64,000 nucleotides of DNA from Nitratireductor sp. (GTDB taxonomy: Bacteria > Pseudomonadota > Alphaproteobacteria > Rhizobiales > Rhizobiaceae), in contig NZ_CP051236.1 of the NCBI RefSeq assembly GCF_017794765.1, positions 174,430 to 238,429 on the forward strand. The letters run 5' to 3'. This document shows positions 8,222 to 13,633 of this stretch, one piece after another. The translations under genes and the position numbers were made by a program. Below the pieces are notes generated by a model, which had not been told where the DNA came from, did no database searches, and worked only from the letters and a program-made list of their open reading frames with translations. How positions within the stretch are numbered: the stretch's first letter is position 1; the number at the start of each line of letters is the position of its first letter.

Positions 8222-8261
8222 GCCCATGCAAGGAGCCGGAACGCGGGTTCCGGAAATCAAA

Positions 8262-11249
8262 ATGGCACGGCAAGATCAGGCCAACGACCAAATGTCGCTC
8301 ACCTCGTTCCTCTATGGTGGCAACGCTGCCTATATCGAGGAACTCTACGCCAGCTATCAGGACGATCCGTCTTCCGTCAGTGAAGACTGGCGCGACTTCT
8401 TCGGCGCGCTCAAGGATGACGCTGTTGATGTGAAGAAGAACGCCGCCGGTGCGTCCTGGAAAAAGAAGAACTGGCCTCAGGCCGCCAATGGCGAGCTTGT
8501 CTCAGCGCTTGATGGCGACTGGGGCGCAGTCGAAAAGCATTTCGACGGCAAGATCAAGGAAAAGGCAGCCAAGACCGGCGCGCAGCTCTCGCCTGAAGAG
8601 ACGTTGCAGGCGACGCGTGATTCCGTCCGTGCCATCATGATGATCCGCGCCTATCGCATGCGCGGTCATTTGCATGCCGACCTCGACCCGCTGGGCATTG
8701 CCAAGCCGCTGGAAGATTACAACGAGCTGTCGCCGGAGGCCTACGGCTTCACGGAAGCCGACTACGATCGCCCGATCTTCATCGATCATGTGCTCGGTCT
8801 GGAGACGGCCACGATCCGCCAGATGCTCGACATTCTAAAGCGGACTTATTGCTCGACGCTGGGCGTCGAGTTCATGCACATCTCCAACCCGGCCGAAAAG
8901 GCCTGGATTCAGGAACGCATCGAGGGTCCGGACAAGGGCGTCGAATTCACCGCCAACGGCAAGAAGGCGATCTTGCAGAAGCTGATCGAGGCAGAGGGCT
9001 TCGAGCAGTTCATCGACGTCAAATACAAGGGCACCAAGCGCTTTGGTCTCGACGGCGGTGAAGCGCTGATCCCGGCGCTCGAACAGATCATCAAGCGTGG
9101 CGGCCAGATGGGCCTCAAGGAAATCGTTCTCGGCATGGCCCATCGCGGTCGCCTGAACGTGCTCGCCCAGGTCATGGAAAAGCCGCATCGCGCCATCTTC
9201 CACGAGTTCAAGGGCGGCTCCTTTGCCCCTGACGATGTGGAAGGCTCCGGTGACGTGAAATACCATCTCGGCGCTTCCTCCGACCGCGCCTTTGATGGCA
9301 ACAATGTCCACCTCTCGCTGACGGCGAACCCCTCGCACCTGGAAATCGTGAACCCGGTGGTGATGGGCAAGGCCCGCGCCAAGCAGGACCAGGTGTTCGG
9401 CCGCAAGCGCGAGGAAGTGGTGCCGCCGGAAGAGCGGGCGCGCGTCATGCCGTTGCTCCTGCACGGTGATGCCGCTTTTGCTGGTCAGGGCGTTGTAGCC
9501 GAGTGCTTCGGCCTGTCGGGCCTGCGCGGCCACCGCGTTGCCGGCACCGTGCATTTCATCATCAACAACCAGATCGGCTTCACCACCAATCCGCGTTTCT
9601 CGCGCTCCTCGCCCTATCCTTCCGATGTGGCGAAGATGATCGAAGCGCCGATCTTCCACGTGAATGGCGACGACCCGGAAGCGGTGGTCTATGCGGCAAA
9701 GGTTGCAACCGAATTCCGCATGACCTTCCACAAGCCGGTCGTGATCGATATGTTCTGCTACCGTCGCTACGGCCACAACGAGGGCGACGAGCCGGCATTC
9801 ACGCAGCCGATCATGTATCGCAAGATCCGCAAGCACACGACGACCAGCGAGATCTACGCGAAAAAGATGCTCGAAGAAGGTCTTGTGACCGAAGCCGACA
9901 TCGAGAAGATGCGGGCGGACTGGCGCGCACATCTGGAAGCGGAGTTCGAGGCCGGTCAGGCCTACAAGCCCAACAAGGCCGACTGGCTGGACGGTGTCTG
10001 GTCAGGCCTGAAGAAGGCCGATCATGCGGATGAACAGCGCCGCGGCAAGACCGCTGTCCCGGTCAAGACGCTCAAGGAAATCGGCAAGAAGCTGACCGAA
10101 ATCCCGGAGGATTTCGAAGCTCACCGCACGATCCAGCGCTTCCTCAAGAACCGCAAGACGATGATCGACGATGGGGCCGGCATCGACTGGGCGACCGCCG
10201 AGGCCCTTGCCTTCGGCTCGATCCTGCTCGAGGGCAATCCGGTGCGCCTTTCCGGTCAGGACTCCGAGCGCGGCACCTTCTCACAGCGCCACTCCGTGCT
10301 CTACGACCAGCGCGACGAAAACCGCTACATCCCGCTCAACAATCTGGGACCGCAGCAGGCCTATTACGAAGTCATCAATTCGATGCTTTCAGAAGAAGCC
10401 GTTCTCGGCTTCGAATACGGCTTCTCGCTAGCAGAACCGCGCGCGTTGACGCTGTGGGAAGCCCAGTTCGGCGACTTCGCCAATGGCGCACAGGTGGTCT
10501 TCGACCAGTTCATCTCTTCGGGCGAGCGCAAATGGCTCAGGATGTCGGGCCTCGTGTGCCTGCTGCCACACGGCTATGAAGGCCAGGGTCCGGAACACTC
10601 TTCCGCCCGCCTCGAACGCTGGCTGCAGATGTGCGCGGAAGACAACATGCAGGTGGCCTACTGCTCGACACCTGCGAACTACTTCCACATCCTGCGCCGA
10701 CAGCTGAAGCGCGATTTCCGCAAGCCGCTCATCCTGATGACGCCGAAATCTCTGCTGCGCCACAAGCGCTGCGTGTCTACATTGGCTGAGCTTTCAGGCG
10801 AAAGCGCATTCCACCGTCTCTTGTGGGACGATGCCGAGCATCTGGACGGCGAGAAGATCAAGCTGGTGAAGGATTCGAAGATCCGCCGCGTGGTGATGTG
10901 CTCCGGCAAGGTCTATTACGACCTTTACGAAGAGCGCGAGAAGCGTGGCATCGACGATATCTATCTCCTGCGTGTCGAACAGCTCTATCCATTCCCGGCC
11001 AAGGCTTTGATCAACGAGCTTTCGCGCTTCAAGAACGCGGAGATGGTGTGGTGCCAGGAAGAGCCCAAGAACATGGGTGCCTGGTCCTTCATCGATCCAT
11101 ATCTGGAATGGGTTCTGCAGCACATCGAGGCCAAGAACACGCGCGTGCGCTACACCGGTCGTCCGGCCGCTGCATCGCCCGCGACCGGCCTCATGTCGAA
11201 GCATCTGGCGCAGCTCGAGGCTTTCCTCGAAGACGCGCTCGGCGAATAG
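8262..11249 (+). CDS. sucA: 2-oxoglutarate dehydrogenase E1 component
   Basis: The 995-residue TPP-dependent E1 of the 2-oxoglutarate dehydrogenase complex; it decarboxylates 2-oxoglutarate and transfers the succinyl group to lipoyl-SucB. The N-terminal segment [17 protein letters not shown] docks E1 on E2. [23 protein letters not shown] and NNQIGFTT belong to the TPP-binding core, and the C-terminal transketolase-like half is complete. I place the start at MARQDQAND (8262), which matches rhizobial SucA starts. An in-frame ATG at 8226 lies right against the upstream hairpin repeat and has no ribosome-binding site. sucB follows 20 bases downstream. Confidence 0.95.
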
Positions 11250-11269: not shown

Positions 11270-12811
11270 ATGGCGACCGAGATTCGGGTTCCCACACTGG
11301 GCGAGTCCGTGACCGAGGCAACCATTGCCCGCTGGATGAAATCGGTGGGTGACACGATCGCCACCGACGAGCCACTCGTTGAGTTGGAAACCGACAAGGT
11401 TTCCATTGAAGTGCCGGCGCCCGCTGCCGGCACCCTCGATGAGATCGCCGTCAAGGAAGGTGAAACCGTCGAAGTCGGCGCGCTTCTCGGCATGATTGCC
11501 GCAGGCGATGGCGCCGGCAAAGCAAAACCAGAAACCAGTCAGGCCGGCGAAAAGTCGACCGGTAGCAAAGAAACCCAGGAGGCAACCATGGCCGGCGGCG
11601 GAAAAATCGTCGAGGTGAATGTTCCATCGGCGGGCGAATCCGTCACCGAAGCCCAGGTCGGCGAGGTCTACAAGAAGGTTGGCGACGCGGTGAAAACCGA
11701 TGAAGCCATTCTCGAGCTCGAAACCGACAAGGCCGCCCAGGAAGTGATGTCGCCGGTCGATGGCGTGATTACTGAGATGGTGGTGAACTCGGGTGACGAG
11801 GTCGAAGTCGGGGCGCTTCTCCTGCGCATCGAGCAGGGAGCCTCTGCCGGCGCAGCGGCGCCCAAGGCCGACAAGCCGGCTGAGAAGGAAGCCCCCGCGG
11901 CGAAGAAGGACGACGATGGCGGACGTCCGCCCGCACCCTCTGCTCAGAAGCTGATGACAGAAAAGGGCATGAAGGCCTCGGACGTTGCCGGTTCCGGCAA
12001 AGACGGCCAGGTGCTGAAGGGCGATGTGCTGGCAGCGCTTGAAGGCGGCGCACCGAGTTCACCGGCTGAAAAGCCCAAGGCAGCCCGCCCCGCTTCTCCG
12101 GCCGAAGACGAGAACCGTGAAGAGCGCGTGAAGATGACGCGCCTGCGCCAGACCATCGCCCGCCGCCTCAAGGATGCGCAGGACACTGCCGCCATGCTCA
12201 CCACCTTCAACGAGGTGGACATGACGGCGGTCATGGAGATGCGTAAGAAATACAAGGAGCTCTTCGAGAAGAAGCATGGCGTCAAGCTTGGCTTCATGGG
12301 CTTCTTCACCAAGGCCGTCTGCCACGCGCTGAAGGAAATCCCGGCTGTGAATGCCGAGATCGATGGCACGGACATCATCTACAAGAACTTCTGCCATATC
12401 GGCGTAGCGGTCGGCACCGACCGTGGTCTCGTCGTGCCGGTGGTGCGCGATGCCGACCAGATGTCGATTGCCGAGGTGGAGAAGGAAATCGGTCGTCTGG
12501 GTCTTGCTGCCCGCGACGGCAAGCTCTCCATGGCCGATATGCAGGGCGGTACCTTTACCATCTCCAATGGCGGTGTCTATGGCTCGCTGATGTCGACCCC
12601 GATCCTGAACGCCCCGCAGTCGGGCATTCTGGGCATGCACAAGATCCAGGAGCGGCCCATGGTGGTCGGCGGCCAGATCGTCATCCGCCCGATGATGTAC
12701 CTCGCGCTTTCGTATGACCACCGGATCGTCGACGGCAAGGAAGCCGTGACCTTCCTCGTACGCATCAAGGACGTGCTCGAGGATCCCGAACGACTGGTCC
12801 TCGATCTCTAG
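11270..12811 (+). CDS. sucB: Dihydrolipoyl succinyltransferase (2-oxoglutarate dehydrogenase E2) with two lipoyl domains
   Basis: A 513-residue E2 core enzyme that passes succinyl groups from SucA to CoA. It has two lipoyl domains instead of the usual one: residues 1-78 with lipoyl Lys43 (ETDKVSIEV) and residues 112-188 with Lys154 (ETDKAAQEV), separated by a Gly/Lys/Ser-rich linker. The peripheral-subunit-binding domain is at about 222-258, and the catalytic domain ends with His484 and Asp488 in [10 protein letters not shown] typical single-lipoyl SucB is about 405-420 residues. An internal ATG at codon 107 would give a 407-residue protein and has its own ribosome-binding site. The ATG at 11270 is preferred because it opens a complete lipoyl domain. 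Confidence 0.94.
11577..11590 (+). promoter_or_regulatory. Perfect internal Shine-Dalgarno and in-frame ATG in sucB
   Basis: AGGAGG at 11577-11582 lies five bases before an in-frame ATG (11588) that opens [21 protein letters not shown], directly at the second lipoyl domain. Translation from here would give a normal-sized, single-lipoyl SucB of 407 residues. The site could be a working second start or a leftover from the fusion of an extra lipoyl domain onto an older gene. Confidence 0.55.
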
Positions 12812-12850: not shown

Positions 12851-12877
12851 CCGCATTAGCCAGCCTTGGGGACGGCA

Positions 12878-13633
12878 ATGACGCAGGCAGCAAAATCACT
12901 TCTGGTGACAGGCGGGAGCCGCGGCATCGGCGCTGCGATCTGCAGGCTGGCTGCGGGCGCAGGGTATCGCGTGGCGGTCAACTACGTCGCCAATCCGGAT
13001 GCTGCCGAAACGGTGGTCCGCGACATTGAGAAGGCAGGCGGCGAAGCCTTCGCCGTCAAGGCCGACATGGCCGAGGAAAGCGAAATCCTGGCCATGTTCG
13101 AGGCCGTTGATCAACGCTTTGGCAAGCTCGATGCGCTGGTCAACAATGCCGGCATCGTCGACCGCAAGGCACGCGTCGACGAAATGGATTTCGCCCGCTT
13201 CGAACGCATGATGCGCATCAACGTGATCGGCACGATGCTGTGTGCTCGCGAGGCAGTGAAGCGCATGTCCACACGCCATGGCGGAAAGGGCGGCGCCATC
13301 GTCAACATCTCTTCCATCGCCGCTGTGCTCGGTTCGGCGGGCGAATATGTCGACTACGCGGCCTCCAAGGCTGCGGTCGACACCTTTACCATTGGGCTTG
13401 CTCGCGAGGTCGCGGAGGAAGGTATCCGCGTCAACGCCGTGCGGCCCGGCATTACAGACACCGAAATCCACGCCTCTGGTGGTCAGCCTGACAGGGCGCA
13501 GCGGCTTTCGGGTCTTATCCCAATGAAAAGGCCTGGCACGGCGGAGGAAATCGCCCGCGCCGCGCTCTGGCTTCTCTCCGATGAGGCGTCCTATTCCACG
13601 GGCGCCATTCTCAATGTCAGCGGCGGCAGATAG
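12878..13633 (+). CDS. SDR-family oxidoreductase within the TCA operon
   Basis: A 251-residue short-chain dehydrogenase. The cofactor motif TGGSRGIG is at about residues 11-18, NNAG follows, and the catalytic Ser-Tyr-Lys is visible as ISS...[11 protein letters not shown]. The substrate is unknown; the sequence resembles glucose/ribitol-type or YgfF-like SDRs. A gene of this type between sucB and lpdA is also found in other rhizobial suc clusters as I recall, but its link to the cycle is not established. The ATG at 12878 has GGGGA upstream; an in-frame TTG four codons earlier is less likely. Confidence 0.85.

Follow-up and report, generated by a model that had tools for sequence, protein, structure and literature searches.

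The sucB gene of this Nitratireductor strain encodes two lipoyl domains and carries, in the linker between them, what looks like a complete translation start. Does it supply one kind of E2 chain to its complex, or two? Within the window (the whole stretch of 64,000 nucleotides analysed here; all features below lie on its forward strand), the frame at 11270–12811 is open throughout and encodes 513 amino acids. The protein scores well above the curated cut-offs of both TIGR01347 (sucB; 656.8 bits against 378.65) and NF004309 (725.5 bits against 449), and the Pfam Biotin_lipoyl model matches it in two stretches (140.2 bits). The first lipoyl domain (D1, residues 4–76; 11279–11497) is of DKV type and contains Lys43 (codon 11396–11398); the second (D2; 11612–11830) is of DKA type and contains Lys154 (codon 11729–11731), and both lysines lie within ETDK motifs. 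The inter-lipoyl linker (11498–11611) is variable among relatives apart from its last part. An E3-binding (peripheral subunit-binding) domain (residues 223–254; 11936–12031) and the catalytic acyltransferase domain (residues 282–510; 12113–12799) complete the order typical of E2o, but with two lipoyl domains instead of one. Translation and Pfam thus bear out the original prediction of a 513-residue dihydrolipoyllysine succinyltransferase with two lipoyl domains.

As is usual for E2o genes, sucB adjoins a frame directly upstream (8226–11249) that we take to be sucA (E1o). The other frames around it are presumably mdh, sucC, sucD, a short-chain dehydrogenase and lpd, the dehydrogenase-like frame lying between sucB and lpd (12866–13633). 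The sucA frame as listed starts at 8226 with no Shine–Dalgarno (SD) sequence (duplex energy +1.9); the Met of MARQDQ, 12 codons downstream, is a candidate and may be the real start.

The putative internal start consists of AGGAGG at 11577–11582, five bases (CAACC) and an in-frame ATG at 11588–11590, from which translation to 12811 would give a 407-residue form with D2 (its residues 9–81) and the core. These elements had all been read correctly, although the ATG does not lie exactly at the start of the second domain, as had been claimed, but about 8 codons before the Pfam match (residue 107 versus 115). The duplex energy with the anti-SD is −10.3 kcal/mol for the internal ATG, compared with −6.6 for the native sucB start; the neighboring starts give −8.9 (mdh), −6.8 (sucC), −5.2 (sucD) and −4.9 (lpd). 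The mRNA around the internal ATG falls in the least structured 6–12% of the gene in all five sequences tested, and low structure is likewise usual at the native start. An in-frame start codon with an SD sequence inside the gene is the first feature expected of dual-start genes of the ClpB type.

We rejected SD strength alone as proof of a start, because AGGAGG–ATG sites inside frames turn up repeatedly in this genome. AGGAGG followed after four to eight bases by ATG occurs five times in the 64-kb window, where 2.26 are expected (five or more were seen in 4 of 100 shuffles), and 190 times genome-wide, against 44 for the reversed pattern. Among the first 30 genome sites listed, with that of sucB included, eight are flanked on each side by 60 or more open codons. 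A single such site is unremarkable by itself, since other long frames contain comparable ones. These lend some weight to a reading in which the linker ends in QEATM by accident, with the residues at the domain start conserved for the sake of the protein. We consider this coincidence unlikely in view of the comparisons described below.

Two questions about the origin of the signal are (i) which of the two lipoyl domains is the added one and (ii) whether the signal is older or younger than the two-domain arrangement. For the first question, a search for the SucB family matched 384 of 394 genomes, with coordinates for about 150 genes among the matches listed. All 50 listed genes whose match or frame suggested two lipoyl domains were read and do have two, so that two-lipoyl SucB occurs in at least 50 of the 394 genomes; 20 of the remaining listed genes were read and are all single-lipoyl. 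Six duplicate rows were dropped from the genes compared, as was L001, which has the same place as L084. In a tree of 129 lipoyl domains, every one of the 31 second domains taken from the order of Nitratireductor falls in one clade (100/100), 13 second domains from Rhodobacteraceae form a clade of their own (100/97) and three from families f54 and f127 form a third (100/95). This tree, whose 78 columns are a small number for its rows, suggests that two-lipoyl SucB arose at least three times, the second domain of the Rhodobacteraceae having apparently arisen separately. The original prediction was right that two-lipoyl forms exist in other Alphaproteobacteria.

The D1 domain of Nitratireductor groups among the domains of single-lipoyl Rhizobiaceae, for which 17 of 19 rows lie among the first domains and outside the D2 clade (88/73 for the larger group); the other two (L160 and L162) belong to the D2 clade. 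Because the D2 domains of the order form a single clade and the single-lipoyl Rhizobiaceae are mostly of D1 type, D2 looks like the added domain. The 407-residue form would therefore be a D2-only protein carrying the derived domain, and not the common single-lipoyl SucB with which it had been equated. A derivation of D2 from another E2 was considered and rejected: the two lipoyl domains of other E2 proteins included, one each from L002 and L003, branch outside all SucB domains (100/95), so that the DKA motif looks convergent. The tree also contains some unusual motifs. In Notoacmeibacter marinus and its relatives (L014, L154 and L155) both SucB lipoyl domains are of DKAAQE type, and the first domains of L014 and L154 lie inside the second-domain clade, as would be expected if a copy of D2 had taken the place of D1. 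Three single-lipoyl SucB genes (L157, L159 and L161, from G188, G010 and G118) have an odd DKVAQE motif; the L157 and L159 domains are found among the first domains.

For the second question, the original prediction had offered, as one of two alternatives, an extra lipoyl domain added upstream of an older D2–core gene, whose start signal would survive without present use. The internal site does resemble a true start (ATG GCC behind a good SD). However, the single-lipoyl relatives mostly carry a domain of D1 type; moreover, 81 of the 93 two-lipoyl genes outside Nitratireductor lack a Met in the proximal linker and hence the signal. In this lineage the two-domain arrangement therefore probably came first and the signal later. 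Relatives with both domains and no signal had been named in advance as evidence against the proposal; such relatives exist, and they count against a surviving relic but not against a start that evolved later. An upstream addition of D1 is thus unsupported, and on the domain tree we hold a relic to be quite improbable for Nitratireductor.

Where a Met does occur in the proximal linker of these 93 genes (12 cases), it is usually accompanied by an SD: 10 of the 12 have an SD energy of −5.9 or below, compared with 20% of the 3685 codons in all linkers of the set. The hyphomicrobial genus g82 speaks less clearly for a start: of the four two-lipoyl genes read from it, one (L145) has an internal ATG with a strong SD, and the SDs of the D2-only genes L160 and L162 are no more than moderate (−5.4 and −5.1).

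Within Nitratireductor the signal is conserved. All 10 distinct sequences compared have the internal ATG with an SD energy of −7.4 or below (a further genome, G009, matched over no more than a short stretch close to the end of a contig and lies outside the 10). The assignment of this strain to the genus agrees with SucB itself: two genomes placed in the same genus as the strain (L090 and L092) have a SucB that shows no difference, over the part compared, from that of named Nitratireductor records (L004 and L006). CAG GAG and the ATG are present in every one of the 10 and AGGAGG in full in nine, while the 12 linker codons displayed immediately upstream of the signal all vary. Nitratireductor indicus is instructive in this respect: it reads AGGAGA-CAAAG-ATG, so that the residues between SD and ATG are altered (ACA AAG) and the SD and ATG are kept. 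Synonymous changes were counted on a neighbor-joining tree in 443 windows of 15 codons. The 15-codon window at the internal start has two, where 11.9 are expected (ratio 0.17, 10 informative columns), and is the lowest of the 443; 14 residues of it are encoded by 11576–11617. The permutation p is 0.0008 for this block, which was picked after inspection, and 0.06 scan-wide. A second low window lies in D2, 27 codons downstream (ratio 0.22). Given the scan-wide value and this nearby low stretch, recombination or a wider constraint is a possible cause of the low synonymous change.

Comparison with other places and groups points in the same direction as the conservation. Synonymous change is not suppressed at the native sucB start of the Nitratireductor set (ratio 1.24–1.34), nor, where the internal start would lie, in a Roseibium group (seven sequences; 0.97 on only five informative columns), in an Aurantimonas-like set of two genera (six sequences; 0.95 on only three columns) or in the related genus g90 (four sequences; 1.25 on only six columns). 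The contrast between Nitratireductor and these three control groups appears clear in direction, with few columns behind it. Genus g90 (L115–L118) has an SD-like sequence with an in-frame ATG or GTG 56–57 codons before the Lys of D2, i.e. elsewhere in the linker, about 10 codons upstream of the place used in Nitratireductor; it is perhaps a separate internal start. Although the scan-wide p of 0.06 leaves some room for a coincidence with protein constraint, synonymous as well as protein change is low, the signal is kept in N. indicus where the protein differs, and the other groups, on few columns, lack the suppression. Nor would suppressed synonymous change be expected of a useless remnant.

Further comparisons come from the Rhodobacteraceae-like family of G414, sampled at one genome per genus, in which 183 of 198 genomes were matched. 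The two-lipoyl genes read were the better-scoring matches, and 124 of them were used in the linker count (G739 and G769, listed as two-lipoyl matches, were left out, and G738, G751, G724 and G783 had no locus). The SD cut-off of −5.9 had been set on the first gene set and was then applied to this one; the two sets share at least one genome (L261 and L045). The 124 linkers contain 15 Met, of which 14 lie 40 to 45 residues before the Lys of D2, where this domain starts. An SD at or below the cut-off precedes 12 of the 15. The same strength is reached by 16.8% of the 3697 remaining linker codons, by 26% of the 444 codons in matching positions and by 14.8% of the 2108 Met codons downstream. Rank tests of the linker Met against these controls give p-values from 1e-7 to 1e-5, which are too small because the rows are related. 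An SD so much more common at Met before D2 than at other codons in the same positions is a further argument against coincidence. It also bears on the idea that an SD-like sequence slows elongating ribosomes between the lipoyl domains to allow folding, with no initiation at all. The location at a domain boundary would suit such a pause, but pausing needs no ATG, and the SD goes with the Met and not with other residues at that position; together with the genes described next, which begin at this very place, this leaves us giving pausing very little credence.

Two side observations in this family concern unusual genes. A two-lipoyl SucB (L244, from G795) has ETHK in place of ETDK as its second lipoyl motif, and its lipoylation may be affected. 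Three SucB matches (L412, L413 and G751 C139:21-809) have open frames of 265–269 amino acids without a lipoyl domain; they may be broken or split genes or reflect sequence errors.

Single-lipoyl genes in this family show what may follow from an internal start. In 11 of them the domain scores 11 to 22 bits better as D2 than as D1, and the others read are of D1 type, including L402, where D1 is favored by 7 bits. The 11 D2-only genes begin with MTDVMVP or MVDVMVP, have SD energies of −6.3 to −10.9 at their starts, and start at the position that corresponds to the internal-start place of their relatives. No other in-frame ATG, GTG or TTG lies upstream in 10 of the 11, and in the remaining one (L340) there are four, all without an SD. 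The leader of the D2-only gene L341, AACGAGGTCAAG-ATG, resembles the linkers of L249 (AATGAGGTCAAA-ATG) and L252.

A core tree was built quickly from 198 rows and leaves many forks open (L412 and L413 were left out of it; L386 has no usable frame and L348 ends at a contig end). In this tree all 11 D2-only genes fall in one clade of 21 (SH-aLRT 87). The same clade holds nine two-lipoyl genes, eight with an internal start and one without, and a single D1-only gene; the 23 other D1-only rows lie outside it. The internal start is thus present in eight of nine two-lipoyl genes inside the clade and in 12 of 150 outside, counted at a cut-off of −5.8, which adds L306 and L316; L316 counts only at this value, and at −5.9 the clade figure is seven of nine. 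In one gene, L326, the internal start is accompanied by a third motif match. The D2-only state requires four changes on the core tree, of which the starred branches force two. For seven of the 11 D2-only genes the nearest two-lipoyl gene is L259, which has no internal signal, and the D2-only state and the internal start are therefore linked by clade and not by nearest neighbor.

A functional internal start would permit such a pattern, since a gene that had D1 deleted could still be translated from it. The opposite order, in which a D2-only gene regained D1, is possible in Rhodobacteraceae because the D2-only genes share their first residues and have leaders similar to the linkers, and this likeness also speaks for the relic history considered above. 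D2 has been lost as well, many genera being D1-only (L334, L387–L414), so that within a single family some members have lost D1 and others D2.

Of the two alternatives in the original prediction, two proteins from one gene is therefore the one we favor, given the conserved signal and the pattern of D1 loss elsewhere, and it is probable that Nitratireductor sucB has a functional second start that supplies long and short SucB to one complex. In this arrangement the two-domain gene would have come first; the internal start would have arisen later in its linker, and selection would have kept it. Ribosomes initiating at 11270 would make the 513-residue E2o with D1, D2, the binding domain and the core, and those initiating at 11588 behind the internal AGGAGG would make the 407-residue E2o with D2 as its sole arm. 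Both forms keep the core and the E3-binding domain and should for this reason enter the same 24-mer, giving complexes with mixed numbers of arms. The two open frames, the signal and its conservation, the low synonymous change and the matching pattern in Rhodobacteraceae are seen in the sequences; production of the short protein, its co-assembly and any effect on flux are predictions.

A precedent for such an arrangement is ClpB95/ClpB80 of Escherichia coli, where one gene with two translational starts yields a short form without the N-terminal domain, and the two forms make hetero-oligomers (PMC6941012). SucB differs in being a metabolic E2 core protein in which the skipped part is one of two similar catalytic arms, and its short form and mixed assembly are predicted. 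Salmonella likewise has N-terminal proteoform pairs from annotated and alternative in-frame starts, which were measured there for other genes; the terms sucB, aceF and lipoyl are not found in the text of that study (PMC11005335). E2 chains with one to three lipoyl domains have been described, and Nitratireductor SucB resembles them in its repeated domains joined by linkers (PMC6270654).

In Nitratireductor, unlike in these multi-lipoyl E2 chains, the number of domains may vary between copies in one cell. We know of no second start in a multi-lipoyl E2 gene. The protein shares with single-lipoyl SucB (TIGR01347) its catalytic core, E3-binding domain, operon place and family score, and differs in the added DKA-type lipoyl domain and the internal start. 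Both dual-start genes and multi-lipoyl E2 chains are thus already known. Among the matches listed in the open-access literature (titles and abstract openings, with few subscription papers), neither a two-lipoyl SucB nor an internal start in an E2 gene was found, and within that limited scope their combination is new.

The two arms of Nitratireductor SucB differ beside the lipoyl-lysine (DKV in D1, DKA in D2), and in the pyruvate dehydrogenase of Bacillus stearothermophilus the residue beside the lipoyl-lysine motif was thought to help specify the E1 contact (PMC6270654). It is tempting to speculate, tentatively, that Alphaproteobacteria have repeatedly made two-lipoyl SucB a dual-start gene, with the proportions of E2 chains carrying two arms and one arm in a 2-oxoglutarate dehydrogenase complex set by a single message; the ratio of starts could also set which E1 is served, and the internal start would provide the exit by which D1 is repeatedly lost while the gene survives.

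If the conserved second start is real, the make-up of lipoyl arms could be tuned within a single cell and a single complex, and domain loss would have a simple evolutionary route, with the start coming first and the deletion after. The role of extra lipoyl domains would then become testable in an environmental bacterium through a single start signal.
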